Source of the DNA: Marinitoga hydrogenitolerans DSM 16785
GTDB lineage: Bacteria > Thermotogota > Thermotogae > Petrotogales > Petrotogaceae
Length of the DNA: 64,000 nt
Reading direction: 5' to 3'
NCBI RefSeq assembly: GCF_900129175.1
Contig: NZ_FQUI01000002.1
Location: forward strand, 1-64,000
Shown here: piece after piece, positions 8,867 to 44,903 of the stretch
How the letters are laid out: every line of letters begins with the position of its first letter
Position numbering within the stretch: the stretch's first letter is position 1
Made by a program: the position numbers and the translations under genes
The notes under the pieces: generated by a model
The model's database searches: none
What the model saw: the letters and a program-made list of their open reading frames with translations, nothing else
Told to the model about the DNA's origin: nothing

Positions 8867-8943
8867 ATAGTCACCCCCATAATATAATTTGCATTGCTAA
8901 TTATATTATATCACAAATTTTCTCACATTTAAAATTCCTATCC

Positions 8944-8995: not shown

Positions 8996-9031
8996 AAAGA
9001 CGTCAAAATAAAATATAGGAGGTTGAAAATC

Positions 9032-9856: not shown

Positions 9857-9871
9857 AAAGGAGTGTTTCTT

Positions 9872-26597: not shown

Positions 26598-27626
26598 TTA
26601 TATTATCCTAATGTTTTCCATTACGTCTTTTAATGTTGTAACAAATATACCTATTGCATAATCTGAAATACCTCCTACCCAAATTATATAATCTCCATAT
26701 TTTATAAGACCATCTCCAAAAATAACAAAAGCTCTATCCCCATAATTTTCAATCATTCCTTCTGGGTATAATAAATAATCACTTATTCCAAGTAAATTCC
26801 CTTCTTCATCAACTATAGCAAATCCATTTTTATACGACAAATCTTCTTTTAAGACAGCATGCCAACCAACTAAATAATTATTACCTACCTTTATTGCATT
26901 CGTTGACCATCCAACTTTTGTTTCCCATGATTCTGCTGCCATAATTGGTTCTAACGAGTCTGGTAATACCCTCATTTTTTTTAAATCCGCTGTTCCTTTC
27001 CAACATAAAAATGTGTTGTCTATTTCTAATCTAGTAAGTATTGATGCAATATCTCCTTTTATATCTAAAAATGCACTATCTTTCATTGTGGGAGGATAAA
27101 ATATTTCTTTATCATTTGAAATTTTAAAAAATGATTTATTTAAAATTTCTAAATTATGATCTAATTTCGAAAATGCTAAAACATCTCTCCTCTTTTCATT
27201 GTGATCAACATATCCCTTACCTGTATATAACATAAGATATTCTCCGTTATATTTTATAACTCTTGCATCTTCGCTTCCAAGAAATTCCCATAAATATTCT
27301 GGATATAAAATCACACTGGCATCAATTTCATTCTTAACAATATTATTTAAGATATTTTCTATATTTAATTCAAAAAAACCTACACTCGACGTATAGTTAT
27401 AATAATCAAATATTAATCTTGGAAAAATTTTTAATTTCTTATCTTCTAACACCGCTCCAGGATTGAAAATAGCTATAGGCCTTCTCTGATAATTTTTAAT
27501 TCTTAAATTATCAGGATAAATATAATATCGTTTAAAAAAAATGTTTTTGGTAATGTTTTTTCTTATAGATCTTTTTTTCTCTAAAAAATTTTTGTTTTTT
27601 TCATATAACACATTTTTAATTTCCAT
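26598..27626 (-). CDS. GH130-type (PH1107-related) mannoside phosphorylase/hydrolase
   Basis: This is a distant member of the GH130 five-bladed propeller family, which attacks beta-1,4 or beta-1,2 mannosides. Visible landmarks are IAIFNPGAVLEDKKL, YTSSVG, GSEDARVIKYNGEYLMLYTG (the ED-R catalytic segment) and AESWETKVGWSTNAIKVGNNYLVGWH. The protein has 342 residues from the ATG at 27626, which follows AAGGAGG; an upstream in-frame start would run through the operator. It is the sole gene transcribed divergently from the inositol operon and shares its operator, so inositol-linked mannosides are a plausible substrate. Sequence alone does not decide phosphorylase versus hydrolase. Confidence 0.75.
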   Translation of the reverse strand: MEIKNVLYEKNKNFLEKKRSIRKNITKNIFFKRYYIYPDNLRIKNYQRRPIAIFNPGAVLEDKKLKIFPRLIFDYYNYTSSVGFFELNIENILNNIVKNEIDASVILYPEYLWEFLGSEDARVIKYNGEYLMLYTGKGYVDHNEKRRDVLAFSKLDHNLEILNKSFFKISNDKEIFYPPTMKDSAFLDIKGDIASILTRLEIDNTFLCWKGTADLKKMRVLPDSLEPIMAAESWETKVGWSTNAIKVGNNYLVGWHAVLKEDLSYKNGFAIVDEEGNLLGISDYLLYPEGMIENYGDRAFVIFGDGLIKYGDYIIWVGGISDYAIGIFVTTLKDVMENIRII

Positions 27627-27640
27627 AAAGATTTCCTCCT

Positions 27641-27654
27641 TGTAAGCGTTTTCA
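27641..27654. promoter_or_regulatory. LacI-type operator before the GH130-like gene
   Basis: TGTAAGCGTTTTCA lies between the ribosome site and a TATACT -10 box (27675-27670, minus). The 20 bases 27641-27660 are repeated exactly at 27923-27942. The position overlaps the start of the transcript, so binding would block it. Confidence 0.85.
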
Positions 27655-27697
27655 AAAAAACCTATAAAAAGTATAACATTTTTTCTCGTCTTCAAAA

Positions 27698-27922: not shown

Positions 27923-27936
27923 TGTAAGCGTTTTCA
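27923..27936. promoter_or_regulatory. LacI-type operator before the inositol operon
   Basis: TGTAAGCGTTTTCA is identical to 27641-27654 and lies 10 bases before the regulator gene, downstream of a TATAAT at 27836-27841. The two identical sites 282 bases apart bracket the divergent promoters and could permit looping. Confidence 0.85.
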
Positions 27937-27946
27937 AAAAAAAGGG

Positions 27947-28930
27947 GTGATCGAAATAATTACGACTAAAGATATTGCTAAAATTGCGAATGTTTCTATA
28001 GCAACTGTTTCAAGAGTTTTAAACAATAATCCTAATGTTTCTGAAAAAACAAGAAAAAAAGTGATAATGGCAATTGAATCTTTAGGATATGAACCTAATC
28101 TATTCGCAAAAAATTTGGCTAAAAAAAACAAATGGAATATTGCGATAGGCTGTACAGAAGAAGTTTTTGAGGGTTTTAAAGATTCTAAAAATAATTTTTA
28201 CCTTCCAATCATGTCTGGTATTAAAGAATATTTTTCTAAAATAAAAGCTGAAATATTTATTTTTTCAATTGAAGATAAAAAATTAAATATATCTTTTAAT
28301 GATGTTGATGGATTTTTGTTAGTTGGTGGTGGTTTAAAAAAAGAAGATATCGAATTTTTTTTAAAATATAAGAAACCTGTTGTTGTTGTTGATGAATATG
28401 TTTGGGGACTTGACGTTGATAGTATAGTAAGTAATGGATTTTTGGGAACATATAATATAGTAAGATTTTTTCTAGAAAAAGGATATAAAAAAATTGTTTA
28501 TTTCCATTTTAAAGAAAAACATTATAGCTTTGAACAACGAAAATTAGGTTATGAAAAAGCTTTGCTTGAAAAAGATTTGATACCAAAAATATATTCATTT
28601 CAAGACATAACCGATTTAAAAAATTTAACCAAAAATGTAATGAAAGAAAAACCTGAAATCATTGTAACAAGCAAGGATTTATGCGCAATTGAAATAATGA
28701 ATATTTTAAATGAAAACAAATACAAAATACCTGACGATGTTGGAGTTATAGGATTTGATGATCTGAAAATTTCAGAAGATTTTCAGCTTACAACTGTTAG
28801 AGTCCCAAGAGAAGAAATGGGCAATTTAGCAGCTGGAAGATTATTTGATCTAGTAAATGGTGTTAATCCTCATCCTATAGTAATTTCACTTTTCACAAAA
28901 CCAATAATACGAAAAAGCGTAAAAATTTAA
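27947..28930 (+). CDS. LacI-family regulator of the inositol operon
   Basis: This repressor has about 327 residues, with the helix-turn-helix TTKDIAKIANVSIATVSRVLNNNPNVS and a sugar-binding-type effector domain ending PIIRKSVKI. It heads the operon, with the GAPDH-like gene 18 bases downstream, and has an operator just upstream shared with the divergent GH130-like gene. It is related to the regulator at 46191 (shared IVSNGF, RGYKK/KGYKK and HP..SLFT segments), and both control GH130 genes. The GTG at 27947 is within the GGGGTG ribosome site. AUA (27956) or AUU (27959) codons, at better spacing and at the usual LacI N-terminus, are possible starts. Confidence 0.88.
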   Translation: MIEIITTKDIAKIANVSIATVSRVLNNNPNVSEKTRKKVIMAIESLGYEPNLFAKNLAKKNKWNIAIGCTEEVFEGFKDSKNNFYLPIMSGIKEYFSKIKAEIFIFSIEDKKLNISFNDVDGFLLVGGGLKKEDIEFFLKYKKPVVVVDEYVWGLDVDSIVSNGFLGTYNIVRFFLEKGYKKIVYFHFKEKHYSFEQRKLGYEKALLEKDLIPKIYSFQDITDLKNLTKNVMKEKPEIIVTSKDLCAIEIMNILNENKYKIPDDVGVIGFDDLKISEDFQLTTVRVPREEMGNLAAGRLFDLVNGVNPHPIVISLFTKPIIRKSVKI

Positions 28931-28948
28931 AAAAAGGAGTTGATGAGC

Positions 28949-29974
28949 ATGGTAAAAGTTGGTGTGGTTGGTTATGGTACTATCGGGCAAAGATTAGCTG
29001 ACGGTGTTGCTTTACAAAAAGATATGGAATTAATAGGAATTGCTGATGTTGCTCCCACATTACCTGTATTGGCTTTAAAAGAAAAAGGAATGCCTTATAA
29101 TTTTTATTTAGCTCTTTCAGAAAATAAAGAAAAGTTAGAAAAATTTGGTATTCCAATTTCTGGCAATTTGGAAGATTTGATAAAAAAATGTGACATAATT
29201 TTAGATGCTACAAATGCTGGAATTGGAGCAAAAAATAAAAAATTATATGAAAAATATGGTAAAAAAGCTATTTTTCAAGGGGGAGAGAAAACTGAAATTG
29301 CTGATGTATTTTTTCACGGTTATGCAAATTTCGAAAAAGGTTTGGGAAAACAATTTTTAAAACTTACCTCTTGTAACACAACCGGATTAATAAGAACCGT
29401 TGATGCGTTAGATAGAGAAATAGGAATTGATAATGTAATAATAACAATTGTTAGAAGGGTTGCTGATCCAGGAGATTATCATAGAGGACTCACAAATGCT
29501 CTTAAAGTTGACAAAGTTCCAAATCATCAAGCTGTAGATTTAATGCTTGTTATGCCTCACGTAAAAGCTACAGGAACATTAGTACATACTCCTGTTACAC
29601 ATGGCCATTTTATTACAGTTGCTGCTAAGCCTAAAAAAACTGTTACTAAAGAAGCTGTTGTAGAAATATTTAAAAAACACCCTCGAATTAGAGTTGTTAA
29701 AATTGAAGATGGATTCTTAGGTAATGCATCTATTTTTAAATTTGGTAGAGATCTTGGACATCCAAGAGGTGATTTATATGAAGTGTTTACATGGGAAGAA
29801 ACTATAACTGTATTTGATGACAGAATAATATATTCAATTCATATTCCTCAAGAATCTGTTACTATTCCAGAAACAATAGACGGTATTAGAGCAGCAATGA
29901 AAATGCAATTAGATAGATTAGAAGCAGTAAGCTTAACTAATAAATACTTAAATATAAAAAATATAAATTATTAG
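28949..29974 (+). CDS. gap: Archaeal-type (type II) glyceraldehyde-3-phosphate dehydrogenase paralogue
   Basis: This is a 341-residue phosphorylating aldehyde dehydrogenase of the archaeal GAPDH class. Visible features are the dinucleotide fold GVVGYGTIGQRLADGV, the catalytic SCNTTGLIRT (Cys142), RRVADPGDY, and the C-terminal IPQESVTIPETIDGIRA. Bacterial glycolysis normally uses the unrelated-looking class I enzyme. The archaeal GPxNAIxP segment reads GLTNALKV here, hinting at a changed substrate site. In this inositol operon I infer oxidation of D-malate semialdehyde, a structural analogue of glyceraldehyde 3-phosphate, to an acyl phosphate. Ordinary GAPDH activity remains possible. The ATG at 28949 follows AAAGGAG. 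Confidence 0.88.
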   Translation: MVKVGVVGYGTIGQRLADGVALQKDMELIGIADVAPTLPVLALKEKGMPYNFYLALSENKEKLEKFGIPISGNLEDLIKKCDIILDATNAGIGAKNKKLYEKYGKKAIFQGGEKTEIADVFFHGYANFEKGLGKQFLKLTSCNTTGLIRTVDALDREIGIDNVIITIVRRVADPGDYHRGLTNALKVDKVPNHQAVDLMLVMPHVKATGTLVHTPVTHGHFITVAAKPKKTVTKEAVVEIFKKHPRIRVVKIEDGFLGNASIFKFGRDLGHPRGDLYEVFTWEETITVFDDRIIYSIHIPQESVTIPETIDGIRAAMKMQLDRLEAVSLTNKYLNIKNINY

Positions 29975-29980
29975 TATCTT

Positions 29981-30009
29981 TTATATGGTGACTTTTAGTC
30001 ACCATATAA
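29981..30009 (+). other. Stem-loop between the GAPDH-like and PGK-like genes
   Basis: A perfect 13-bp stem (TTATATGGTGACT 29981-29993 with AGTCACCATATAA 29997-30009) and a 3-base loop have no U-tract after them. It sits in the only sizeable gap of the operon and may set RNA processing or relative expression of the genes on either side. Confidence 0.65.
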
Positions 30010-30059
30010 ACTTAATAATCATGAGAAACAATTATTTAAAAAACATGTGAGGTGATAAC

Positions 30060-31322
30060 ATGAAGGATCTTAAAATAAATACTTTAGATGATTTTGACTT
30101 TTACGATAAGACTGTTATTTTAAGAGTCGATATCAATTCACCACTTGACCCAAAAACGAAAAAAATTGTAAACGAAAATAGGATCAATAAGGTTGTACCT
30201 ACAATCAAAGAATTATTAAATAAAGGTGCAAAATTAGCTATAATAGCTCATCAAGGTGATTCGCTTGATTATTTCAATCTAATCCCACTTGAAGAACATG
30301 CGAAAAAGCTTTCAGAAAAAATTGGTGCGGAAATTAAATATATTGATGATGTTGCGGGTCCTGCTGCTCAAAATTTAATAAAAAATTTAAAAAAGGGTGA
30401 AGCAATACTTCTCGGAAATCTCAGATATTTAAGTGAAGAAATTTCTACCTTTGAAGATACTGTTAAATTAAGCCCTAAAGAAATGCTAAATACATTTTTA
30501 ATTCGTCATTTGGCACCTCTTGGAGATATTTATGTAAATGAAGCTTTTTCTGCCGCACATAGAAATGCTCCTTCAATGGTTGCATTTGAAGAGCTTTTAC
30601 CTACAGCTGGTGGTAGATTGTTAATTTCTGAAATAAATGCCTTATCAACTGTAATGAAAAATCCTCAAAAACCATCTATCTTTGTTTTAGGAGGATTAAA
30701 AGTCTCAGATGCTTTTGGAATGATGAAACAAGTATTAGAAAATGGCACTGCTGATAAGATTTTAACTTGTGGTGTAACTGGAATTATCATGCATATGTCT
30801 CTAGGCAAATCTTTTGGTAAAAAACAAGAAAAATTTATATATGATCGTTCTTTAAATAAATTTTTTGAACCTGCTAAAGAATTTATGAAAAAGTGGGGAG
30901 ATAAATTTATTAATCCAATTGATTTTGCTTATGAAAATAACGGAAAAAGAATAGAAGTAAGTCTAGATGATTTGCCTGTTAACGATGCACTATTCCTAGA
31001 TATTGGCACAAAAACAATTGAATTATTTAAGAAAGAAATAAATAACGCAAAAACTATATTTGTCAATGGGCCTGCTGGAGCTTATGATCAAAATAAAAAT
31101 TTTGAAAAAGGAACATATGAAATATGGAATGCAATTGCTGATTCAAATGCTTACTCTGTAATAGGTGGTGGCGACTCTGTAAGCGCTGCCCATAAATTGG
31201 TAAAAGATGCTGAAAAGAAATTTAGCTATATTTGCACTGCCGGAGGAGCTATGGTTAGATTTTTATCCGGAAAAGAATTGCCGCTCATAAAAGCGTTAAA
31301 AAAGGCATATAGAAAGAGGTGA
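30060..31322 (+). CDS. pgk: Archaeal-type phosphoglycerate kinase paralogue with altered phosphate site
   Basis: This 420-residue acyl-phosphate kinase has the archaeal PGK lay-out: LRVDINSPLDP at the N-terminus, GNLRYLSEE, YVNEAFSAAHRNAPSMV, VLGGLKVSDA, FVNGPAGAYD and the C-terminal GGGDSVSAA. Of the basic residues that grip 3-phosphoglycerate, R41, H64, R122 and R168 are kept. The Arg of the HxGRP loop is replaced: the loop reads HQGDSLD, with Asp67. In the 3-phosphoglycerate complex this region helps bind the substrate phosphate. That fits a substrate carrying a carboxylate or lacking the phosphate. I infer D-malyl phosphate to D-malate with ATP formation. A GAGGTGAT ribosome site precedes the ATG. 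Confidence 0.88.
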   Translation: MKDLKINTLDDFDFYDKTVILRVDINSPLDPKTKKIVNENRINKVVPTIKELLNKGAKLAIIAHQGDSLDYFNLIPLEEHAKKLSEKIGAEIKYIDDVAGPAAQNLIKNLKKGEAILLGNLRYLSEEISTFEDTVKLSPKEMLNTFLIRHLAPLGDIYVNEAFSAAHRNAPSMVAFEELLPTAGGRLLISEINALSTVMKNPQKPSIFVLGGLKVSDAFGMMKQVLENGTADKILTCGVTGIIMHMSLGKSFGKKQEKFIYDRSLNKFFEPAKEFMKKWGDKFINPIDFAYENNGKRIEVSLDDLPVNDALFLDIGTKTIELFKKEINNAKTIFVNGPAGAYDQNKNFEKGTYEIWNAIADSNAYSVIGGGDSVSAAHKLVKDAEKKFSYICTAGGAMVRFLSGKELPLIKALKKAYRKR

Positions 31323-31327
31323 TTTTT

Positions 31328-32401
31328 ATGAAAAAGTATAAAATAGCTGTAATACCAGGTGATGGTGTTGGTGTTGAAGTTATAAATGAGGGATTGAAAA
31401 TTCTTAATACTATAAAAGAAATACACGGAGGTATAGATTTTGAATTTAAAACATTTCCGTGGAGTTGTGAATATTATTTGAAAACTGGAAAAATGATGCC
31501 TAAAGATGGAATAAAAATTTTAAGTGATTTTGAGGCTATATATTTGGGTGCTGTTGGATTTCCTGGTGTTCCAGATCACATTTCATTATGGGGATTATTA
31601 TTGCCTATAAGAAAGGAATTCGACCAATATGTTAATCTAAGACCAGTTAAATTATTAAAAGGAATTAAGGGTCCTTTAAGAACTGAAAAAATTGATTTTG
31701 TTGTTGTAAGAGAAAATGTAGAAGGAGAATATTCCGGAACAGGAGGACGATTATACCAAGGTACTGAAAACGAAGTTGCTATTCAAACTGCAGTTTTCAC
31801 CAGAAAAGGAACAGAAAGAGTTATGAGATATGCTTTTGAATTAGCAATGAAAAGAAATAAAAATTTAATTTCTACAACAAAATCAAATGCTTTGAATTAT
31901 GGAATGGTTTTTTGGGATGACATTTTTAATAATTTAAAAAACGATTATCCTGAAGTCGAAACTCGCACTATGCATGTTGATGCTTTATCTGGATATTTTC
32001 TACTACATCCTGAAAATATAGATGTAGTTGTTGCTTCTAATTTGTTTGGGGATATATTAACAGATTTAGGATCAGCAATGCAAGGTAGTATAGGAATCGC
32101 TCCTGGAGCAAATATTAATCCTGAAAAAAAATACCCATCGATGTTTGAGCCTGTTCATGGATCAGCTCCTGATGTCGCTGGAAAAGGAATTGCAAACCCT
32201 ATAGGTGCCATTTGGACAGCGAGTATGATGTTAGATCACCTTGGGGAAACAGATTCTGCTAAATTAATCATGAAAGCACTAGAAAAAGTAACTGAAGAAG
32301 GTATATATCTCACAAAAGATGTGGGCGGAAATTCTAAAACTCATGAAGTTGGAGATGCTGTTAATAACAAAATAAAAGAATTAGCAAAGAACAGTTGGTG
32401 A
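31328..32401 (+). CDS. dmlA: D-malate/tartrate dehydrogenase (decarboxylating), DmlA/TtuC family
   Basis: This 357-residue beta-decarboxylating dehydrogenase belongs to the isopropylmalate/isocitrate dehydrogenase superfamily. The segment VPDHISLWGLLLPIRKEFDQ and YVNLRPVKLL are diagnostic of the tartrate/D-malate branch, as in E. coli DmlA. The metal and NAD segments VVRENVEGEYS, ASNLFGDILTDLG and EPVHGSAPDVAGK are intact. DmlA-type enzymes convert D-malate to pyruvate, CO2 and NADH. No tartrate or malate uptake gene is nearby, so D-malate is probably generated inside the inositol pathway. The ATG at 31328 follows AGAGGTGA. Confidence 0.85.
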   Translation: MKKYKIAVIPGDGVGVEVINEGLKILNTIKEIHGGIDFEFKTFPWSCEYYLKTGKMMPKDGIKILSDFEAIYLGAVGFPGVPDHISLWGLLLPIRKEFDQYVNLRPVKLLKGIKGPLRTEKIDFVVVRENVEGEYSGTGGRLYQGTENEVAIQTAVFTRKGTERVMRYAFELAMKRNKNLISTTKSNALNYGMVFWDDIFNNLKNDYPEVETRTMHVDALSGYFLLHPENIDVVVASNLFGDILTDLGSAMQGSIGIAPGANINPEKKYPSMFEPVHGSAPDVAGKGIANPIGAIWTASMMLDHLGETDSAKLIMKALEKVTEEGIYLTKDVGGNSKTHEVGDAVNNKIKELAKNSW

Positions 32402-32405
32402 GAAA

Positions 32406-33257
32406 ATGCTTACAAAAGATGAATTAAAAAAAATTAAAAAGTTTGCAATCCAAATACGCATAGAAACATTAAAGGAAATCGGAAATTTAGGATTTGGACA
32501 TTTACCAGGTGCTATGTCTATTGTAGAATTATTAGCTGTTTTATATAGTAAAGTTCTTAAAATTGACCCAAAAAAAACAGATTGGAATGAAAGAGATTGG
32601 TTTATTTTATCTAAAGGTCATGCTGGTCCATCTCTATATGCAACTTTAGCGATAAAAGGATATTTCCCTAAAGAATGGTTATTAACTTTGAATAAAGGTG
32701 GAACATTATTACCAAGCCATACAGATAAAAACTTAACCCCGGGAATTGATATGACAACAGGTTCATTAGGCCAAGGAATGTCTACAGCTCTTGGTGTAGC
32801 TTTAGGTTTTAAACTCTCAAAAAAAGATAATTATGTATATGTTGTGTTAGGAGATGGCGAGTCTCAAGAAGGGCAAGTTTGGGAAGGCGCTTTATATGGA
32901 GGAAATTTAAAGTTAGATAATTTAACTGTATTTATTGACTATAACAAACAACAATTAGATGGATATACAAAAGATATAAACGATTTAGGAGATTTAAGAA
33001 AGAAATGGGAAGATTTTGGTTGGTATGCTATTGAAGTCGATGGACATAATATTGAGGATATATATAATGCTGTAGTAGAGGCTAAAAAAATCAAAAATAA
33101 AAGTTCTGTAATAATTTTGAATACGGTTAAAGGAAAAGGTGTTTCATTTTTAGAAGGCAAAGTTGCACATCATGTAAAAGTAAAACAAACTGAAATTGAA
33201 AAAGCGATAAAAATCCTTGAGAAAGAACTAGAAAGCCTTGAAGAAGGTGATTTGTAA
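32406..33257 (+). CDS. Split transketolase, N-terminal (thiamine diphosphate-binding) subunit
   Basis: This 283-residue protein is the ThDP pyrophosphate-binding half of a transketolase. It has LSKGHAGPSLYATLA, the ThDP motif GDGESQEGQVWEGALYGG ... NLTVFIDYN, and TTGSLGQGMSTALGVALG. Split transketolases in catabolic operons usually act on special ketose substrates (for example apulose-4-phosphate or sulfofructose). Here it lies between the dehydrogenase and iolB. I infer it takes the two-carbon unit from 2-deoxy-5-keto-D-gluconate, whose hydroxyls have the 3S,4R arrangement transketolase needs. It overlaps the C-terminal subunit by one base. Confidence 0.9.
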   Translation: MLTKDELKKIKKFAIQIRIETLKEIGNLGFGHLPGAMSIVELLAVLYSKVLKIDPKKTDWNERDWFILSKGHAGPSLYATLAIKGYFPKEWLLTLNKGGTLLPSHTDKNLTPGIDMTTGSLGQGMSTALGVALGFKLSKKDNYVYVVLGDGESQEGQVWEGALYGGNLKLDNLTVFIDYNKQQLDGYTKDINDLGDLRKKWEDFGWYAIEVDGHNIEDIYNAVVEAKKIKNKSSVIILNTVKGKGVSFLEGKVAHHVKVKQTEIEKAIKILEKELESLEEGDL

Positions 33258-34222
33258 TGGATGTTAAGATATCTAAAGATAATAATGTGGATACTAGAAT
33301 GATGAGAGATGCTTATATAGATAAGCTAATTGAATTAGCAAAAAATGATGAAAAAATAGTTCTTTTAGATGCTGATTTGATGAGTTCTAATGGTACCATA
33401 AAATTTTCAAAAATATTCCCGGAAAGAACATTTAATGTTGGTGTTCAAGAAGCAAATATGGTAGGAATAGCTGCTGGATTAGCGGCAACAGGGAAAATAT
33501 CTTTTGCACATACATTTACATCTTTTATGTCACGAAGAGCTCTTGATCAAGTATATATGTCAGTAGCATATGCAAAATTAAATGTTAAATTGGTTGCTAC
33601 AGATCCTGGAATAACTGCTGCATATAACGGCGGGACACATATGGCTTTACAAGATTTTGCTGTTATGTTATCAATACCTACAATGTATGTTGTAGAACCT
33701 ACTGATTGTGTTATGATCGAAAACTTAGTTGAACAAATAACTTATACAAAAGCTCCCTTTTATGTAAGACTATTAAGAAAAAATCCTATTAAAATATATG
33801 AAAATTGTAGTAAATTTAAGTTAGGAAAAGGCGTTATACTTATGGATGGAAATGATGCAACCATTATAGCAAGTGGAATTATGGTTAGTGAAAGTTTAAA
33901 AGCTGCTGAATTATTAAAAAAAGAAAATATTAATGTACGTGTTATAGACATGTTTACATTAAAACCTATTGATGAGAAATTAATTATTGAAAGTGCCAAA
34001 AAAACTGGTGCGATTATAACAGCTGAAAACCATACAATCATTAATGGGTTGGGAATGTCAGTAGCAAAAGTAGTTTCCGAAAATTATCCTGTTCCTATAG
34101 AGATGATTGGCATAAATGATGAATTTGGTGAAGTGGGCGATGTTGAATATTTGAAAAAAAGATTCAAATTGACATCAGAAGATATTGTAAAAAAAGTTAA
34201 AAAAGCTTTAAAAAGAAAATAA
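33257..34222 (+). CDS. Split transketolase, C-terminal (pyrimidine-binding) subunit
   Basis: This 321-residue partner of the preceding subunit carries the pyrimidine-binding domain (GVQEANMVGIAAGLAATGKISFAHTF, with the catalytic Glu in QEANM) and the C-terminal transketolase domain (VRVIDMFTLKPIDEKLI). It starts one base before the end of the N-terminal subunit, so the two are certainly made together. The pair should form an alpha2beta2 enzyme. Its donor in this context is the proposed deoxyketogluconate, with glyceraldehyde 3-phosphate or ribose 5-phosphate as acceptor. Confidence 0.9.
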   Translation: MDVKISKDNNVDTRMMRDAYIDKLIELAKNDEKIVLLDADLMSSNGTIKFSKIFPERTFNVGVQEANMVGIAAGLAATGKISFAHTFTSFMSRRALDQVYMSVAYAKLNVKLVATDPGITAAYNGGTHMALQDFAVMLSIPTMYVVEPTDCVMIENLVEQITYTKAPFYVRLLRKNPIKIYENCSKFKLGKGVILMDGNDATIIASGIMVSESLKAAELLKKENINVRVIDMFTLKPIDEKLIIESAKKTGAIITAENHTIINGLGMSVAKVVSENYPVPIEMIGINDEFGEVGDVEYLKKRFKLTSEDIVKKVKKALKRK

Positions 34223-34234
34223 GGGGGGATTTTT

Positions 34235-35026
34235 TTGATAATAAAAAAAGAAAAAGAATTTAAAAAAGGATATAATTCTATAACTTCCGAAGATGATAAA
34301 CAAAATAACACTATGATGGACTTCGGAATAATAATACTGAAAGATAGCGATGTATATATAAATTCTGAAAAAAAAGAAAGAGTTTTTTTAATAATGAATG
34401 GAGAAGTTTTATGTGAATATGATGAAATTTCATTTACAATAACAAGAAATTCTTTATTTGATGAATCTCCATATGTTTTGCATATTCCTAATAATATAAA
34501 TATAAAGTTAATTGCAAAAAAAGAAGCTGAGATCTGCTATGTTGCAACAAAAAATGATGTTATTTTTCAAAGCAAATTATATAATCCCAAAGATGTACGT
34601 TCTGAATATCGTGGAAAAGGTACTATGAAAGAAACATCAACCAGAATTGTTAGGACTGTTTTTGATAAATCTAACGCTCCACAATCAAATTTGGTCATAG
34701 GTGAAGTCATAAATTATCCTGGTAAATGGTCGAGCTACCCTCCACATCATCATCCTCAACCTGAAATTTATCATTATAGATTTTTACCAAAACAAGGATT
34801 CGGAATATCAATCTTAGGAGATGATGCATATAAAATATATGATGGAGATACTGTATTGATATTAGATGATAAAGTACATCCTCAAGTTTCAGCACCTGGT
34901 TATGCAATGTATTATATATGGGCCATAAGACATTTAGAAAATAACCCATATATTACTCCAACTTTTGATAAAGAACATTTATGGGTAATGGAGAAAAATG
35001 CTTCCATTTGGCCAGAGGAGGAATGA
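34235..35026 (+). CDS. iolB: 5-deoxy-glucuronate isomerase
   Basis: IolB isomerises 5-deoxy-D-glucuronate to 2-deoxy-5-keto-D-gluconate. The 263-residue bicupin has the metal-binding run PPHHHPQPEIYHYRF and the C-terminal VHPQVSAPGYAMYYIWAIRH seen in IolB. The start is a TTG at 34235 after GGGGGGA. The neighbouring iolD, iolE and iolG place it firmly in inositol catabolism. Confidence 0.93.
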   Translation: MIIKKEKEFKKGYNSITSEDDKQNNTMMDFGIIILKDSDVYINSEKKERVFLIMNGEVLCEYDEISFTITRNSLFDESPYVLHIPNNINIKLIAKKEAEICYVATKNDVIFQSKLYNPKDVRSEYRGKGTMKETSTRIVRTVFDKSNAPQSNLVIGEVINYPGKWSSYPPHHHPQPEIYHYRFLPKQGFGISILGDDAYKIYDGDTVLILDDKVHPQVSAPGYAMYYIWAIRHLENNPYITPTFDKEHLWVMEKNASIWPEEE

Positions 35027-35028
35027 TT

Positions 35029-36903
35029 ATGAAAAAACTAAAATTAACAATGGCACAAGCTTTATTAAAATTTTTAGATAATCAATATGTGGAATTTGAT
35101 GGAAAAGAATACAAATTTATAAAAGGAATTTTTGGTATTTTCGGACATGGAAATGTATTAGGAATTGCAGAAGCTTTAGAAAACATGAAAGATTTGTCAT
35201 TAAAATTTTATCAGGGTCATAATGAACAAGGAATGGTTCATGCAGCAACTGCTTACGCGAAACAAAAAAACAGATTAGAAATTTTTGCCTGTACTAGTTC
35301 CATAGGACCTGGAGCGCTAAATATGGTAACAGCTGCAGCAACTGCTACTGTAAATAAAATACCAGTATTATTGTTACCTGGAGATATTTTCGCTTCAAGA
35401 CAACCTGATCCTGTATTACAGCAATTAGAAATGCCTAATAATTATAAAATGGTTGCTAATGATGCATTCAAATCTGTAAGTAAATATTGGGATAGAATAG
35501 AAAGACCTGAACAATTGATGTCAGCAGTAATAAATGCTATGCGTGTTTTAACGGATCCTGTTGAAACTGGAGCTGTTACATTAGCCTTACCCCAAGATGT
35601 ACAAGGAGAAGTATATGAATATACATATGATTTTTTCAGAAAAAGAGTATGGATAATTGAAAGAAGAACTCCCAACTATGAAAGTTTGAAAAAAGCGGCT
35701 AATCTTATATCAAATAAGAAAAAACCGTTAATCATTGCAGGTGGCGGTGTCCATTATTCATTTGCATATGATGAATTAAAAGAATTTGCTGAAACATTTA
35801 ATATTCCAATTGGGTTTACTCAAGCTGGAAAAGGTGCATTAGTATGGGATCATCCGTTAAATATGGGTGGAATAGGTACAACAGGAACATTAGCAGCGAA
35901 TAAATTAGCAAAAGAAGCTGATTTGATAATAGCAATTGGAACAAGATTGATGGATTTCACTACCGCTTCTAAAACACAATTTCAAAATAAAAATGTGGAA
36001 TTTTTGAATATTAACATTTCAAGATTTGACGGCATAAAATTAGATTCAACATTACTTTTATCAGATGCTAAATTGGCATTAAAAGAATTAAAAAAAGAAC
36101 TTGAAAAAAGAGAATACAAATCCGGATATACTCAAAAGTATATTTCTTCATTAAAAAATAAATGGAATGAAGAAGTTAATAAATTATATTCTTTAAATTC
36201 TAAAAAAGGTATTGTTCAAACAAGAGCTTTAGGGTTAATTAACGAATTGTTTAATGAAAATGATATTATAGTTGGAGCTGCTGGAAGTTTACCTGGAGAT
36301 TTACATAAACTTTGGAGATGCAAAGGTATTAAAACTTATCATCTTGAATATGGTTTTTCTTGCATGGGTTATGAGGTTGCCGGAACTTACGGGGTAAAAC
36401 TAGCTGAACCTAAAAAAGAAATTTGGACTATGATCAGTGATGGTAGTTATATAATGTTGCATTCCGAACTTGTGTCTTCAATCCAAGAAGGAAAAAAGAT
36501 TAATATTATCATGTTTGATAATGGAGGATTCCAATCTATAAACTCTCTACAAAAAGGTCATGGAAGCGAAAAAGGATTTGGGAACGAATTAAGATATAGA
36601 AATTCAAAAACTGATAAACTAGATGGAGAATATATGAAAATTGATTTTGCCAAAAATGCTGAAAGTTATGGAGCAAAAGCTTTTTATGTTGACACCATTG
36701 AAAAATTAGAAGATGCTTTAAAAAAAGCACGAGAATCGGAAATTAGTACTCTTATTCATATAAAAATTATACCTGGAACTCAATCTTCAGGATATGAAAC
36801 TTTTTGGAGAGTTGGTATTGCTCATCATTCTCAAAACCCTAAAGTTATTGAAAAGCAAAAGGATCATGATGAATACTTACAAAAATATGCAAAAGATTAT
36901 TGA
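35029..36903 (+). CDS. iolD: 3D-(3,5/4)-trihydroxycyclohexane-1,2-dione hydrolase (ThDP-dependent)
   Basis: IolD opens the inositol-derived ring diketone to 5-deoxy-glucuronate. The 624-residue ThDP enzyme of the acetolactate-synthase fold starts LTMAQALLKFLDNQY. It has GIFGHGNVLGIAEAL, the catalytic Glu in YQGHNEQGMVHAA, IGPGALNMVTAAATA and the ThDP motif SDGSYIMLHSEL ... NIIMFDNGGF. The ATG at 35029 is chosen because GAGGAGG lies 8 bases upstream. It begins 2 bases after the iolB stop. Confidence 0.95.
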   Translation: MKKLKLTMAQALLKFLDNQYVEFDGKEYKFIKGIFGIFGHGNVLGIAEALENMKDLSLKFYQGHNEQGMVHAATAYAKQKNRLEIFACTSSIGPGALNMVTAAATATVNKIPVLLLPGDIFASRQPDPVLQQLEMPNNYKMVANDAFKSVSKYWDRIERPEQLMSAVINAMRVLTDPVETGAVTLALPQDVQGEVYEYTYDFFRKRVWIIERRTPNYESLKKAANLISNKKKPLIIAGGGVHYSFAYDELKEFAETFNIPIGFTQAGKGALVWDHPLNMGGIGTTGTLAANKLAKEADLIIAIGTRLMDFTTASKTQFQNKNVEFLNINISRFDGIKLDSTLLLSDAKLALKELKKELEKREYKSGYTQKYISSLKNKWNEEVNKLYSLNSKKGIVQTRALGLINELFNENDIIVGAAGSLPGDLHKLWRCKGIKTYHLEYGFSCMGYEVAGTYGVKLAEPKKEIWTMISDGSYIMLHSELVSSIQEGKKINIIMFDNGGFQSINSLQKGHGSEKGFGNELRYRNSKTDKLDGEYMKIDFAKNAESYGAKAFYVDTIEKLEDALKKARESEISTLIHIKIIPGTQSSGYETFWRVGIAHHSQNPKVIEKQKDHDEYLQKYAKDY

Positions 36904-36917
36904 TAGGAGGAATTTTT

Positions 36918-37814
36918 ATGTTAAAAAAAGATGATATTAAAATTGGCATCGCCCCAATTGCATGGACAAATGATGATATGCCAGAACTTGGTGGAGATAT
37001 ATCATTTGAACAGTGTATAGATGAAATGCAAAAAGCTGGCTATGAAGGTACTGAAATCGGAAATAAATATCCCAAAGATCCAATAAAATTAAAGTCAGAG
37101 TTAGAAAAAAGAAATTTAAAAGTAGCCAGTCAATGGTTTAGCACATTTTTTACTGTTGATAAATTTGATAAAACAATTGAAGATTTTAAAAAACATATGA
37201 ATTTTCTAAAAGCTGTTGGTGCTGAAGTTATCGTCGTTGCCGAATGCGGAAAATCCATTCATGGCAATATAAATATACCTTTACACAAAAACAAACCTGT
37301 CTTTAATGATGAAGAATGGAATAAACTCGCTAAAGGTTTAAATATTCTCGGCAATTTAGCAAAAGAAAAAAATATGAAAATAGTATATCATCATCATATG
37401 GGAACTGGAGTTCAAACCTATGAAGAAATTATTAAATTAATGGAATTAACAGATCCAACAAAAGTTTTTTTATTACTTGATACAGGTCATATTGTATTTT
37501 CAAATGGAGATCCACTTAAATTAATAGAAAAATATCCTGATAGAATTAAACACATTCATTTAAAAGATTTAAGAAAAGATATATTAGAAAAAACTTATAA
37601 AGAAGATTTGAGTTTTTTAAACGCAGTTAAAGAAGGTGTATTTACTGTTCCTGGTGATGGTATGATTGATTTCAAACCTATTTTTAATAGTTTAAATAAA
37701 ATAGATTATAAAGGATGGTTAATAGTTGAAGCTGAACAAGATCCAAAAAAAGCACCACCATTAAAATTTGCTTTAAAAGCACGAAACTATATTAAAAATC
37801 TAATAGGATTTTGA
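36918..37814 (+). CDS. iolE: 2-keto-myo-inositol dehydratase
   Basis: IolE removes water from 2-keto-myo-inositol to form the cyclohexane-dione. The 298-residue xylose-isomerase-type TIM barrel begins KIGIAPIAWTNDDMPELGG, a hallmark of IolE. It contains the metal-site segments YHHHMGTGVQ, LLDTGHIVFS and HIHLKD, and ends with WLIVEAEQDPKKAPP. The ATG at 36918 has ATAGGAGG upstream. It sits between iolD and iolG. Confidence 0.95.
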   Translation: MLKKDDIKIGIAPIAWTNDDMPELGGDISFEQCIDEMQKAGYEGTEIGNKYPKDPIKLKSELEKRNLKVASQWFSTFFTVDKFDKTIEDFKKHMNFLKAVGAEVIVVAECGKSIHGNINIPLHKNKPVFNDEEWNKLAKGLNILGNLAKEKNMKIVYHHHMGTGVQTYEEIIKLMELTDPTKVFLLLDTGHIVFSNGDPLKLIEKYPDRIKHIHLKDLRKDILEKTYKEDLSFLNAVKEGVFTVPGDGMIDFKPIFNSLNKIDYKGWLIVEAEQDPKKAPPLKFALKARNYIKNLIGF

Positions 37815-37823
37815 GGTGATATT

Positions 37824-38837
37824 ATGGATAAAAAACTTAAAATTGGTGTAATTGGAGCAGGAAGGATTGGTAAAATTCATGCAAGGAATATTGCCAAATT
37901 AAATAATGTTGAATTAATAAGTATTGCTGATATTAATGTTGAAGCAGCCAAAGATTTAGCAATAAAAGTTGGTGCAAAAAAATATTTTTCTGATTTCCTA
38001 AAAGTGATAAACGATGATGAAATTGATGCTGTTGTTATTTGCTCGCCAACTAATACTCATGCAAAGCTAATAATAGAAAGTGCAAAAGCTGGAAAAGATA
38101 TATTTTGCGAAAAACCTATAGACTTTGATATAGAAGTTATCAAAAAAGCTTTGGAAGTTGTTAAAGAATGTGGAGTGAAATTACAATTGGGCTTTAATAG
38201 AAGATTTGATCATAATTTTAAAAAAATCAAAGAATTAATACAAAATGATGAGTTAGGAAAACCTCATATTATAAAAATTACATCTAGAGATCCAAAAGCA
38301 CCCCCTCCTGAATATGTAAAAACTTCTGGAGGAATTTTCATGGATATGACCATACATGATTTTGATATGGCAAGATATCTTGCTAATTCGGAAGTAGAAG
38401 AGGTTTTTGCTGTGGGTAATGTTTTAATAAATCCAGAATTTGAAGAATTACATGATTTTGATACTGCTGTTATAACATTAAAATTTAAAAACAATGCCGT
38501 ATGTCTAATAGATAATAGTAGAGAAACTTCATATGGTTATGATCAGAGAATTGAATATTTTGGAATTAAAGGATGTGCTATTGCTCAAAATGATAAACCT
38601 ACCAATACTATAATATTAAACGAAAAAGGGGTTTTATCTGATAAACCTTTATACTTTTTTTTAGAAAGATATATGAAATCATTTGAAGAAGAAATAAAAG
38701 AGTTTGTTAATTCTGTATTAAACGGTAAAAATGTTCCTGTTTCTGGAGAGGATGGTTTAAAAGCCACTTTAATCGCTAAAGCTGCTTTAATTTCCGCAAG
38801 AGAAAACCGCCCTGTAAAAATGGAAGAACTTTTATAA
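37824..38837 (+). CDS. iolG: myo-Inositol 2-dehydrogenase
   Basis: IolG oxidises myo-inositol to 2-keto-myo-inositol with NAD. The 337-residue GFO/IDH/MocA protein shows the Rossmann motif GVIGAGRIGKIHARN, the catalytic Lys in FCEKPID, and the conserved GGIFMDMTIHDFDMARYL with Asp/His catalytic residues. It is last in the operon, just before a strong terminator. The family also contains other inositol dehydrogenases (scyllo-inositol, D-chiro-inositol), so stereoisomer preference is open. Confidence 0.92.
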   Translation: MDKKLKIGVIGAGRIGKIHARNIAKLNNVELISIADINVEAAKDLAIKVGAKKYFSDFLKVINDDEIDAVVICSPTNTHAKLIIESAKAGKDIFCEKPIDFDIEVIKKALEVVKECGVKLQLGFNRRFDHNFKKIKELIQNDELGKPHIIKITSRDPKAPPPEYVKTSGGIFMDMTIHDFDMARYLANSEVEEVFAVGNVLINPEFEELHDFDTAVITLKFKNNAVCLIDNSRETSYGYDQRIEYFGIKGCAIAQNDKPTNTIILNEKGVLSDKPLYFFLERYMKSFEEEIKEFVNSVLNGKNVPVSGEDGLKATLIAKAALISARENRPVKMEELL

Positions 38838-38978: not shown

Positions 38979-39692
38979 TTATTCATCAACTTCCTTCAAT
39001 AATTTAAGAAGTGATGGATAATGTGTGGTGATTCCATCCACATTCATACGAATCATTTTTTTCATATCTTCTTTTCTATCTACAGTCCAAACTTGAACAA
39101 ATAATCCATTTAAATGTGCATTATAAACAAGGTTTTCATTACATAATTTATAATTTATATTAATTCCAATTGCTCCAGTTTTAATTGCAATCTTTATTAA
39201 TGTTTTATTAAAAATACTAATATCTTCTTTGGTTAAATATTCAAATTCTTGAGAATTCAAAAAAATAGCATAATTATCATCCAATTCTCTTAACTTCATA
39301 ACCCACGATGAACTACAACCACTAAAAATTATTTTTTCTGTGTAATTTAATTTTTTTAATAAAGTAATTACTGGCTCTATAACATCCTCACTTTTTAAAT
39401 CAAGGTTAAGATGTATCTTCATATTTATATCTTTTAAAACCTCTTCTAATGAAATAACTCCATTTTTTCTTAAAATGTTATTTATAACATTTGATGTTTT
39501 TTCAAAATGCCCAGAATTTTTATAAATAAATGGGTCATGTGATAAAACCAACACTTTATCTTTACTCATATCAATATCAACTTCAATAATATCTGCACTG
39601 GAATTAATTGCTGAATATATATGTTCAAAAGAATTATCTTCTGTATCATTACAACCAGAATGAGCTGTTATTAATGGCTTTAATGCTTTCAT
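38979..39692 (-). CDS. Glycerophosphodiester phosphodiesterase-family protein, divergent active site
   Basis: This 237-residue GDPD-fold TIM barrel lacks a signal peptide, so it acts inside the cell on an imported substrate. The two catalytic His (His11 in TAHSGC, His52 in LSHDP) and the metal ligands Glu37/Asp39 (IIEVDI) are kept. The usual HRG reads HSG, and the PENT metal-ligand motif reads EDNS, with Asp for Glu. The C-terminal VQVWTVDRKEDM and GITTHYP match the family. It is the last gene of an ABC operon beside the inositol operon, so glycerophosphoinositol or di-myo-inositol phosphate are candidate substrates. This is inference. Confidence 0.8.
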   Translation of the reverse strand: MKALKPLITAHSGCNDTEDNSFEHIYSAINSSADIIEVDIDMSKDKVLVLSHDPFIYKNSGHFEKTSNVINNILRKNGVISLEEVLKDINMKIHLNLDLKSEDVIEPVITLLKKLNYTEKIIFSGCSSSWVMKLRELDDNYAIFLNSQEFEYLTKEDISIFNKTLIKIAIKTGAIGININYKLCNENLVYNAHLNGLFVQVWTVDRKEDMKKMIRMNVDGITTHYPSLLKLLKEVDE

Positions 39693-39701
39693 ATATTCCT
39701 C

Positions 39702-40802
39702 CTAAAAAAGAAGATTTTCTCCTGTGTTTTTATCAAAAAGATGAAAATTAGTATCTGGAAATTTTAAATATATATCATCATCTATTTTTAATTCATACTT
39801 TTCATCACTGATTATTTTAAAAATATTGTTTCCTAATTTGATATTATATATAATTTCCCTTCCTAAAGGTTCAAGGATATATACCTTTGATTTAAAAGAA
39901 TTTCCTTCTTCTTTCTTAAACCTTATTTTAATATCTTCTGGTCTCAATCCCATCAAAACATTTTTCTCACTTATTTTATTTATTTTTTCTTTTATTTCCT
40001 TATTAACTATTTTTATCTTAATATCATCTTCAATTTTAATATAAACATCCTCACCTAATTTTATAATTTCAACATCTATTATATTCATTGACGGAGTACC
40101 AACAAATCTTGCTACAAATATGTTTTTTGGTTGATTATATATTTTATCCGGAATATCAAATTGCATCAACTTACCTTTATTAAATACAGCAATTCTATCA
40201 GCCATTGTCATTGCTTCAATCTGATCATGAGTAACATAAACAGAAGTTATTCCTAAATCATGTTGCAACTTTTTGATTTCTGCACGCATATAAGCTCTTA
40301 ATGCAGCATCTAAATTAGATAAAGGTTCATCAAATAATAAAATTTTAGGTTTTTTTACAAGAGCTCTAGCAATTGCAACTCTTTGCTGTTGTCCTCCTGA
40401 AATTTGATTAGGTTTTCTATCTAGTAATTTACCAATATCAAGATTTTTAGTTACATCTTTTACTTTCTTATCTATTTCATTTTTATCCATTTTTTTTGCT
40501 TGAAGTGGGAATGCAATGTTTTCATATAATGTCATATGAGGATATAATGCATAACTTTGAAAGACCATACCGATTTCTCTATCTTTCGGAGGAACTTCAT
40601 TTACAACTTGATTGTCAAATAAAATTTCTCCTCCTGTTGGCTTATATATTCCTGCTAACATTAACAATGTTGTAGTTTTACCACATCCAGATGGCCCTAA
40701 AAACACTACGAATTCTCCATCATTTATTTTTAATGAAACATCATCTACAGCTTTAACATTTCCAAAATGCTTTTTTAAATTTTTTAATTCAATTGTTGCC
40801 AT
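39702..40802 (-). CDS. Carbohydrate ABC transporter ATPase (UgpC/MsmK/MalK type)
   Basis: This 366-residue importer ATPase has Walker A GPSGCGKTTTLLMLAG, Q-loop VFQSYALYPHMTLYENI, signature ISGGQQQRVAIARAL, Walker B ILLFDEPLSNLDAALR and the H-loop YVTHDQIEAM. A C-terminal TOBE-type regulatory domain (MGLRPEDIKIRF) follows. It is the only CUT1-type ATPase in the window and may also energise the ATPase-less importers at 21234, 48438 and 63339. The ATG at 40802 is preceded by GAGTGAT; nine extra upstream bases in frame are discarded. Confidence 0.93.
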   Translation of the reverse strand: MATIELKNLKKHFGNVKAVDDVSLKINDGEFVVFLGPSGCGKTTTLLMLAGIYKPTGGEILFDNQVVNEVPPKDREIGMVFQSYALYPHMTLYENIAFPLQAKKMDKNEIDKKVKDVTKNLDIGKLLDRKPNQISGGQQQRVAIARALVKKPKILLFDEPLSNLDAALRAYMRAEIKKLQHDLGITSVYVTHDQIEAMTMADRIAVFNKGKLMQFDIPDKIYNQPKNIFVARFVGTPSMNIIDVEIIKLGEDVYIKIEDDIKIKIVNKEIKEKINKISEKNVLMGLRPEDIKIRFKKEEGNSFKSKVYILEPLGREIIYNIKLGNNIFKIISDEKYELKIDDDIYLKFPDTNFHLFDKNTGENLLF

Positions 40803-40814
40803 AAATATCACTCC

Positions 40815-41681
40815 TTAACCTTTAGTACCCGTTATATTAACTTCTAAAAGATATTTGTTTGTAAGTAAAAAGAATATTAATGTTGGTATTATGTAAAATA
40901 AAGAAATGGATGTTAATAAACCATAATCTACAAATCTGAAATCTCCAATTATTCCTTTTATATATCTTGACAAAGTCCAGGTTTGTTGGTTTAAAATAAA
41001 TGTATTTATAAAAACAAACTCTGACCATCCAGAAAGAAATCCAAAAATCGCAGCAACTGCAATACCTGGTTTAACTAAAGGTAAAATTATTTTCCTAAAA
41101 ACTTGTATTCTGCTATAACCATCAACCAAACCTGCCCATTCTATTTCCCATGGAAGTTGATCATAAAAACCTTTCATAATCCACGAGCCCCATGGTATTT
41201 CTAAAGCAGCCTTTAATAAAATGACTCCCCATAAAGTATTGATTAAATTTAGCGTATTCAATACATAATAAATAGCAACCAAAAGAGAAACTGCAGGAAA
41301 TGAATGCAATACAAGAATACTTTTTAAAATAGGAACTCTACCCTTAAATTTAAACCTTGAAAGTGCATATCCAGCAAAACTCGATACAAAAACTTCAAAT
41401 GCCATTACAAGAAAAGCTACAATAAAAGTATTAAAAGTTACAGACCAAATATTAGGGTATCCTTTAACAGATTCCCATAAAAACCTCCAATGCTCTAATG
41501 TGAATTCAGTAGGAATTATTCCATATTTCATTCCTTTCGAAAAAGAACTTAATATAAGCCATAAATAACTCAAAATTATTGGAAGACTAATAGTTATTAA
41601 AATAAAATAAACTATTATGCGTATTATTTTTTCTTTTTTCCTTTGAAAAAAAGTTATTTTATATTTTTTATCACTCATCAT
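40815..41681 (-). CDS. Carbohydrate ABC transporter permease (MalG type), probable inositol-compound importer
   Basis: This 288-residue membrane subunit has six helices. Its CUT1 coupling loop, EWAGLVDGYSRIQVFRKIILPLV, departs somewhat from the usual EAAxxDGA. The C-terminus ends LEVNITGTKG. It overlaps its partner permease by 4 bases. It belongs to the operon of a DeoR regulator, TM0415-like kinase and GDPD protein, suggesting an inositol-containing substrate. Confidence 0.88.
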   Translation of the reverse strand: MMSDKKYKITFFQRKKEKIIRIIVYFILITISLPIILSYLWLILSSFSKGMKYGIIPTEFTLEHWRFLWESVKGYPNIWSVTFNTFIVAFLVMAFEVFVSSFAGYALSRFKFKGRVPILKSILVLHSFPAVSLLVAIYYVLNTLNLINTLWGVILLKAALEIPWGSWIMKGFYDQLPWEIEWAGLVDGYSRIQVFRKIILPLVKPGIAVAAIFGFLSGWSEFVFINTFILNQQTWTLSRYIKGIIGDFRFVDYGLLTSISLFYIIPTLIFFLLTNKYLLEVNITGTKG

Positions 41682-42598
41682 GAATCAACCTCTATTCTAG
41701 GATCTTCCATCATATTTTCAAATTTAAAGATTTTCAAATAAATTAATGAAGCCACAAATCCTAATACTACTAAAACTAAAGACAATGCCGCACCATAACC
41801 AAATCTAAAATTTTCAAATGCTGTATGATATGTATATAATGCCCATACTTCTGTGGAAAACACAGGACCTCCATCAGTTAATATTAGAATATATTCAAAT
41901 GATGTTAAAAGTGACAATGTTTGATATGCTGTTGTAAAAAGAATTTGCCATTTTAAAATAGGTAAAATTACCTTTCTAACTGTAAAAAACCATCCTCCAC
42001 CATCAACTTTTGCAGCATAAATATAATCGCGTGGTATTGATTTTATTGCTGAAGTAAATAAAATCATCCCAAAAGAAGCTCCAACAAACCCATTTGCAAA
42101 TATAATAATTAACATTGGGTGAGCACTCAAAAAGTTTATTGGCTCTTTCCCAAAAGCTTCTGTCCTTATACCATTTATCATACCAAACTTTGTTGGGTCA
42201 AATATCCATAACCATAACAATGAATAAACTACAGAAGGGGTTAATCTCGGCAACATCCATAACAATCTAAAAACCAACCCTCCATTTTCATCAATAGAAG
42301 TTGTTAATAATGATAAAACTAATGCCAACCCTACATTAAAAAAGGTTAATGTTAAAAGCACATATGTAAATGTATTTTTTATAACTATTGGAACTAAAAA
42401 ATCAGAAAACATATCTTTAAAGTTAGTGAATCCATGAAAATCCCAATTAAAAGAATAATCCATATCAGTGAAAGATAGAATAAAAGTTAATATTGCTGGT
42501 ATAACAAAAAATACTATTACAAGTAATATACCAGGAAATAAAAAGAAAAAGAGCGATAACTTTGTACCTTTTTTATAATTTTTTTTAGAAATATTCAT
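41678..42598 (-). CDS. Carbohydrate ABC transporter permease (MalF type)
   Basis: This is the partner permease, 306 residues, with six or seven hydrophobic segments and a coupling loop reading YAAKVDGGGWFFTVRKVILPIL. It lies after a stem-loop that separates it from the binding-protein gene. Together with the gene at 40815 it forms the membrane channel of the importer. Confidence 0.9.
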   Translation of the reverse strand: MNISKKNYKKGTKLSLFFFLFPGILLVIVFFVIPAILTFILSFTDMDYSFNWDFHGFTNFKDMFSDFLVPIVIKNTFTYVLLTLTFFNVGLALVLSLLTTSIDENGGLVFRLLWMLPRLTPSVVYSLLWLWIFDPTKFGMINGIRTEAFGKEPINFLSAHPMLIIIFANGFVGASFGMILFTSAIKSIPRDYIYAAKVDGGGWFFTVRKVILPILKWQILFTTAYQTLSLLTSFEYILILTDGGPVFSTEVWALYTYHTAFENFRFGYGAALSLVLVVLGFVASLIYLKIFKFENMMEDPRIEVDS

Positions 42599-42623
42599 TA
42601 TATCACGACCCCTTTACTTTAAA

Positions 42624-42650
42624 TACTCTCTCTCCTAAAGAGAGAGAGTA
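42624..42650 (-). other. Stem-loop between binding-protein and permease genes
   Basis: A perfect 11-bp stem (TACTCTCTCTC with GAGAGAGAGTA) and 5-base loop start 6 bases after the binding-protein stop. It has the same position as the unrelated stem-loop at 23002 in the galactose operon and probably the same role in favouring receptor expression. Confidence 0.7.
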
Positions 42651-42656
42651 ATAAAA

Positions 42657-44883: not shown

Positions 44884-44903
44884 ATAAAAACCTCCTAAAC
44901 AAA

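Follow-up and report, generated by a model that had tools for sequence, protein, structure and literature searches.

A putative transketolase and D-malate route for myo-inositol breakdown in an operon of Marinitoga hydrogenitolerans and its relatives

Introduction

In the canonical inositol pathway, encoded by the iolABCDEFGHIJ genes of Bacillus subtilis, the enzymes IolG, IolE, IolD and IolB lead to 2-deoxy-5-keto-D-gluconate (deoxyketogluconate), which is further broken down by way of a kinase, an aldolase and malonate semialdehyde. Here we describe an operon with the same upper half in Marinitoga hydrogenitolerans DSM 16785 (phylum Thermotogota), located in the first 64,000 nucleotides of contig NZ_FQUI01000002.1, a stretch referred to below as the window. 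In place of the kinase IolC and of IolA, the operon has genes for a split transketolase, a glyceraldehyde-3-phosphate dehydrogenase (GAPDH) of type II, a phosphoglycerate kinase (PGK) and a malate dehydrogenase of the TtuC/DmlA type. The genome is 2.31 Mb in size, consists of 87 contigs and is 100% complete.

Within the same phylum, Thermotoga maritima is said, in work by Rodionova et al. from 2013, to possess an inositol route of IolG, IolM, IolN and IolO, in which IolM/IolN open the ring and IolO epimerises. That route likewise begins with an inositol dehydrogenase. It differs in that the dehydratase of the M. hydrogenitolerans operon matches IolE (430 bits) and not IolO, the sole IolO candidate among the operon proteins scoring 41 bits against a cut-off of 300.

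5-Ketogluconate is the 2-hydroxy analogue of deoxyketogluconate. An engineered form of the Escherichia coli transketolase TktA (R358I/H461S/R520Q) has raised activity on 5-ketogluconate and cleaves it at the C4-C5 bond, the same cleavage as is proposed below, but for production and not as part of a natural catabolic operon (PMC12016104). The initial annotation of the operon, made from the letters of the window, had named as a precedent the transketolase cleavage of 5-ketogluconate to tartaric semialdehyde in Gluconobacter; the cleavage is indeed documented, but the enzyme is the engineered E. coli TktA expressed there, and for the natural enzyme there are older suggestions of this activity (PMC12016104). 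The sulfo-transketolase SqwGH is likewise encoded by two genes and uses glyceraldehyde 3-phosphate as the acceptor of a C2 unit, the donor being an acidic, unphosphorylated ketose; it differs in its substrate (6-deoxy-6-sulfofructose), in running through two cycles with the isomerase SqwI and in having no GAPDH/PGK/malate branch (PMC13219744). The type II GAPDH and archaeal PGK of glycolysis and gluconeogenesis share their families and catalytic residues with the operon copies, which differ from them in being bacterial, in lying within inositol operons and in their changed cofactor and substrate residues. Nickel malate racemases, which are found in relatives of the operon, have been characterised in vitro with their cellular role left open (PMC7583248, PMC11770544), and their purpose in the cell has been named an important remaining question (PMC7583248). 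One of these, Mar2, represents LarAH6, the best model for the racemases of the relatives, and inositol goes unmentioned by its discoverers (PMC7583248).

The proposed pathway

The operon very probably encodes a complete, non-canonical route of myo-inositol breakdown in which deoxyketogluconate is cleaved by transketolase and D-malate is then formed and oxidised, a reading drawn from sequence comparison. By the standard chemistry of their families, IolG, IolE, IolD and IolB would yield deoxyketogluconate. The split transketolase would then take the place of both phosphorylation by IolC and splitting by IolJ, cleaving deoxyketogluconate at C4-C5 with release of D-malate semialdehyde and transfer of two carbons to a sugar phosphate; the acceptor is most likely glyceraldehyde 3-phosphate, which would give xylulose 5-phosphate. 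The GAPDH paralogue would oxidise D-malate semialdehyde to D-malyl phosphate, using NAD and phosphate, and from this product the PGK paralogue would form D-malate and ATP with ADP, and the TtuC/DmlA enzyme is predicted to convert D-malate to pyruvate, CO2 and NADH. In many relatives, D-malate may instead reach pyruvate through L-malate, by means of a nickel malate racemase that is often accompanied by malic enzyme.

The initial annotation had arrived at this route from the gene content and the stereochemistry, the latter of which was re-derived here with the same outcome. Viewed from the C6 end, the hydroxyls of deoxyketogluconate stand in the D-threo arrangement found in transketolase donors, and cleavage at C4-C5 leaves a four-carbon malate semialdehyde of the same D configuration as glyceraldehyde 3-phosphate, oxidation of which gives D-malate, the substrate of DmlA/TtuC. 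The route now also draws support from two further lines of evidence set out below, namely the replacement of the dehydrogenase by racemase and malic enzyme in related operons and the changed substrate sites of PGK, GAPDH and transketolase.

As to the fate of the two-carbon unit, its return via hexose phosphates would fit the phosphofructokinase gene found beside six Clostridia copies of the module (L045, L055, L056, L069, L075 and L095, all with a phosphofructokinase-family gene of one cluster, c14). Phosphoketolase was considered as another fate but is not supported, the 749-aa neighbour present in three loci having no Pfam match.

Replacement of malate enzymes among genomes

The strongest support for the transketolase and D-malate scheme is the replacement of TtuC by LarA in some genomes, which lay outside the view of the initial annotation. 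The TtuC/DmlA protein, the best solved relative of which is tartrate dehydrogenase/decarboxylase 3flk, was correctly called as DmlA-type at the outset, passing the TIGR02089 cut-off (470) with 571 bits, while the second copy tested passes it with 521 bits. The operons of two other Thermotogota genomes (G021, G022) have no TtuC; they possess a LarA-family gene between those for PGK and transketolase as well as a malic enzyme gene after a second IolG, and in a third (G019) LarA and TtuC are both present. More generally, where relatives have no DmlA-type gene, a nickel malate racemase (NF052593, LarAH6) is usually present, and malic enzyme often accompanies it.

LarAH6 was the best-fitting model for all nine LarA proteins compared. 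Against its cut-off of 500 bits the Thermotogota proteins score 507 (G019), 498 (G021) and 493 (G022), the majority of those sampled from Clostridia and Chloroflexota 551-601, those of loci L040 and L106 492 and 491, and those of Spirochaetota 380-390. The catalytic residues are intact in the LarA proteins of G019, G021 and G022. The family assignments and the pattern of replacement suggest that different genomes take D-malate to pyruvate by different enzymes, either directly through TtuC or via L-malate through LarA and malic enzyme.

Substrate sites of PGK, GAPDH and transketolase

The operon PGKs form one clade (support 100/98) apart from canonical PGKs. In PGK, Arg65 is a basic residue that, in established structures, contacts the 3-phosphate of 3-phosphoglycerate. 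At this position all 76 operon PGKs are changed (64 Asp, 12 Ser), while Arg or Lys stands there in 19 of 20 canonical PGKs taken from those genomes. The remaining residues of the basic patch and the nucleotide-site Lys are retained. In the operon GAPDHs, K33 of the archaeal enzyme is replaced by Asp in 79 of 79 copies, a change that would fit the use of NAD rather than NADP, and several motifs of the substrate pocket are altered in an essentially invariant manner across the same copies (HHGPD to HQAxD, GP to GL and TTLMH to TPVTH); the catalytic SCNTTG and RR-ADP motifs are retained.

In the transketolase C subunits, the positions of E. coli H461 and D469 are occupied by Asp and Asn respectively in 48 of 48 proteins, with R520, E411 and His473 retained, and the N subunits keep His26, His66, His100 and His261 (E. 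coli numbering) in 47 of 47. The full-length transketolases of four Thermotogota genomes have His at 461 and Asp at 469. Position 461 is also among the three altered in the engineered TktA with raised activity on 5-ketogluconate. Alignment columns R358 and S385 were unreliable and were left out.

Missing genes, housekeeping copies and alternative readings

The absence of IolC and IolA, initially noted for the operon, extends to the entire genome. In whole-genome profile searches no protein of M. hydrogenitolerans exceeded the cut-off for IolC (best kinase 145 bits against 300) or IolA (best 129 bits against 448.5). These models do work, as control genomes score above the cut-off (3 of 14 for IolC and 5 of 14 for IolA). 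Among 23 genomes with the module, only two have IolC above the cut-off and 21 are without it; in the absence of IolC, IolJ would have no substrate. Nor does an iolC or iolA gene occur elsewhere under the operator of the operon, which lies solely beside this operon. The separate housekeeping gap and pgk genes that the initial annotation had suggested looking for are both present, a canonical GAPDH-I (C26:10396, 457 bits) adjoining a canonical PGK (C26:11470, 560 bits), and a full-length transketolase is encoded at C9:14463. The operon thus carries extra copies of GAPDH, PGK and transketolase which, judged by their residues, appear to be specialised.

These results bear on the possibility that the three proteins are ordinary extra isozymes which feed triose and pentose phosphates derived from inositol into glycolysis and the pentose phosphate pathway, with an unrelated, unseen enzyme acting on deoxyketogluconate. 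Their membership of glycolytic families is in keeping with this, as is the phosphofructokinase gene beside six Clostridia copies. Nevertheless, we regard it as quite improbable and have rejected it as the principal explanation: the genome already has canonical copies of all three, the operon copies fall into a clade of their own and have altered substrate sites, the IolC that the usual route would need is missing, and the recurrent malate racemase, malic enzyme and D-malate dehydrogenase would be left unaccounted for.

Highly improbable, too, is that a kinase other than IolC and an aldolase process deoxyketogluconate in the usual manner, with the GAPDH, PGK and malate genes serving another, co-regulated acid. 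Candidate kinases do exist, since most module genomes encode several PfkB kinases that score under the IolC cut-off, one PfkB gene lies within the window (44038-44913) and FGGY kinases are encoded beside four Bacillota copies. However, in a neighbourhood comparison, for which no IolJ-specific model was used, neither a kinase nor an aldolase was conserved in the module across phyla; IolA, which would be needed for malonate semialdehyde, is also missing, and the GAPDH-PGK module tracks IolD genome-wide. That the transketolase step is right but no ATP is made, through a non-phosphorylating GAPDH paralogue or a PGK paralogue otherwise employed, is extremely unlikely, for although the several substitutions near the GAPDH active site could mean that phosphate binding is lost, PGK accompanies GAPDH in 75 of 82 loci and both proteins keep the motifs and basic residues described above.

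Distribution of the module

When 85,000 species genomes were scanned for the operon GAPDH, 80 loci of at least 127 relatives were obtained, at 64-83% identity. These belong to Bacillota, Chloroflexota, Spirochaetota, Thermotogota, Poribacteria, Atribacterota and others, and such recurrence of the same gene set across phyla, which a survey had been proposed to look for, means that it is not a chance grouping. Among 82 distinct loci, many of them truncated by contig ends, PGK is present in 75, transketolase in 47, IolD in 47, a malate racemase or TtuC in 54 and malic enzyme in 20. Despite contig ends, the 47 loci with IolD have a malate racemase or TtuC in 38 cases and transketolase in 35. In support of the link with inositol, 19 of 26 genomes without IolD beside the GAPDH gene encode it at another place. 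The special PGK (74-76% identical) is present in five of 103 Thermotogota genomes, including that of M. hydrogenitolerans, and IolD in six, these being the same five and G014, where the contig ends inside the TtuC gene of the same operon; the coincidence has a probability of about 7e-8, relatedness being ignored.

It is likely that these loci represent a widespread anaerobic inositol pathway with a deoxyketogluconate transketolase and with a phosphorylating D-malate-semialdehyde dehydrogenase and a D-malyl-phosphate kinase derived from GAPDH and PGK, one that would gain ATP via malate and would explain the retention of nickel malate racemases.

Several observations weigh against this pathway or against parts of the evidence for it. 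The genes LarC and LarE for synthesis of the nickel-pincer cofactor are absent from the LarA-bearing genomes G019, G021 and G022, which leaves the racemase step in G021 and G022 unexplained; the eight LarA genomes tested from outside the Thermotogota all have LarC. Loss of Arg65 is no proof of a new substrate, as a canonical-looking PGK (G106, L154) has Asp65 also, and the transketolase type with 461D and 469N is shared by a few split transketolases that do not belong to inositol operons. The IolB-like protein is supported by its Pfam match and falls below the NCBI cut-off (TIGR04378, 107 against 205). Neither TtuC nor LarA is found near IolD in nine loci, several of which are at contig ends, and in several Spirochaetota loci the split transketolase is not beside the module. 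Some GAPDH-PGK loci have no inositol genes nearby, and in seven of the 26 genomes without IolD beside the GAPDH gene no IolD was found at all, some of these genomes being fragmentary.

With regard to individual loci, gut Clostridia (L063, L065, L074, L078, L085, L088, L099 and L108) have the GAPDH-PGK pair apart from inositol genes and IolD elsewhere in each genome, and in several of these loci the pair is followed by genes for FAD-dependent proteins. Split transketolases with a DPG...NGGTH signature outside the module are encoded in G108 (C61:50160, L172) and G116 (C20:75717, L183) and are perhaps transketolases of other sugar acids or sulfo-sugars. In L047 the module lies on a contig whose label is that of an archaeon (Jingweiarchaeum), where the PGK groups with a Poribacteria copy; its presence there probably reflects a binning error or a transfer.

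Organisation of the operon

The operon (27947-38837) consists of ten consecutive plus-strand genes separated by -4 to 85 bp (Table 1). Pfam and TIGRFAM profile matches bear out the gene list first drawn up for it (IolG, IolE, IolD, IolB, split transketolase, GAPDH, PGK and a DmlA-type enzyme), in the order LacI, type II GAPDH, PGK, TtuC/DmlA, transketolase N, transketolase C, IolB-like, IolD, IolE and IolG. The start at 28949 given at that time has to be moved about 1 kb upstream, the unit beginning with the LacI gene. The archaeal label of the GAPDH stands by its TIGR01546 score, and that of the PGK is fair, its best solved relative being that of Pyrococcus (2cun, 272 bits) ahead of that of Thermotoga (1vpe, 211 bits).

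A LacI-type palindromic operator occurs twice at the upstream flank of the operon. These are its only copies in the whole genome at up to one mismatch, and no gene elsewhere appears to share the operator. L033 has a LacI gene in the equivalent position, encoding a protein 52% identical, and a similar pair of palindromes (TGTAAGCGATTACA and TGTAATCGCTTACA) precedes that gene.

Table 1. Features of the M. hydrogenitolerans inositol operon (coordinates in the window) and of LarA genes in related loci
Feature	Coordinates	Strand	Remarks
LacI-type palindromic operator TGTAAGCGTTTTCA, copy 1	27641-27654	+	Exact; GH130 side of divergent region
LacI-type palindromic operator TGTAAGCGTTTTCA, copy 2	27923-27936	+	Identical to copy 1; directly upstream of LacI gene
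LacI-family regulator, first gene	27947-28930	+	PF00356/PF13377
Type II (archaeal-type) GAPDH paralogue; proposed NAD-dependent phosphorylating D-malate-semialdehyde dehydrogenase	28943-29974	+	TIGR01546 311 bits, cut-off 233
PGK paralogue; proposed D-malyl-phosphate:ADP phosphotransferase (ATP-forming)	30060-31322	+	PF00162 353 bits
TtuC/DmlA-type D-malate dehydrogenase (decarboxylating), predicted	31319-32401	+	TIGR02089 571 bits, cut-off 470
Transketolase N-terminal (thiamine diphosphate) subunit	32406-33257	+	PF00456 164 bits
Transketolase C-terminal subunit; with N subunit, proposed deoxyketogluconate transketolase	33257-34222	+	PF02779/PF02780
IolB-like 5-deoxy-glucuronate isomerase	34235-35026	+	PF04962 191 bits, above cut-off; TIGR04378 107 bits, cut-off 205
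IolD, trihydroxycyclohexane-dione hydrolase	~35023-36903	+	TIGR04377 914 bits, cut-off 715; start inside open reading frame called at 34981
IolE, inosose dehydratase	36900-37814	+	TIGR04379 430 bits, cut-off 290
IolG, inositol 2-dehydrogenase, last gene	37824-38837	+	TIGR04380 469 bits, cut-off 355
LarA (nickel malate racemase family), L033 (G019)	7769-9034		
LarA (nickel malate racemase family), L034 (G021)	7275-8528		
LarA (nickel malate racemase family), L036 (G022)	8910-10172		

A GH130-family phosphorylase gene (26598-27695, minus strand) has the divergent region and one operator copy in common with the operon. On the other side, and convergent to it, minus-strand genes at 38979-44009 encode a glycerophosphodiester phosphodiesterase and an ABC transporter of the sugar/glycerophosphodiester type, which could possibly serve the import of an inositol-containing phosphodiester.

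Conclusion

The initial annotation had remarked that the pathway seemed not to have been described, and no paper on transketolase and malate in inositol breakdown was found in the open-licence literature, although a subscription paper could exist. The upper half is known, while the lower one is, as far as we can tell, undescribed, as are at least two of its enzyme activities; we regard the route as a novel form of inositol breakdown and see a strong case for new enzyme functions. It is worth mentioning that in a large survey of genomes for inositol use, clusters were counted on the basis of iolB, iolC, iolD and iolE, all four were deemed essential and the absence of a fourth gene was read as an incomplete genome, an assembly error or a frameshift (PMC9430895).

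If the proposal is true, the lower half of the textbook pathway would be replaced in many anaerobes of the gut, rumen, sediment and hot environments, with the ATP cost of IolC avoided and one ATP gained at malate. Two reactions would be added to the GAPDH and PGK families, and routine glycolytic annotation would misread many genomes. It would also provide a testable role for the nickel malate racemases.

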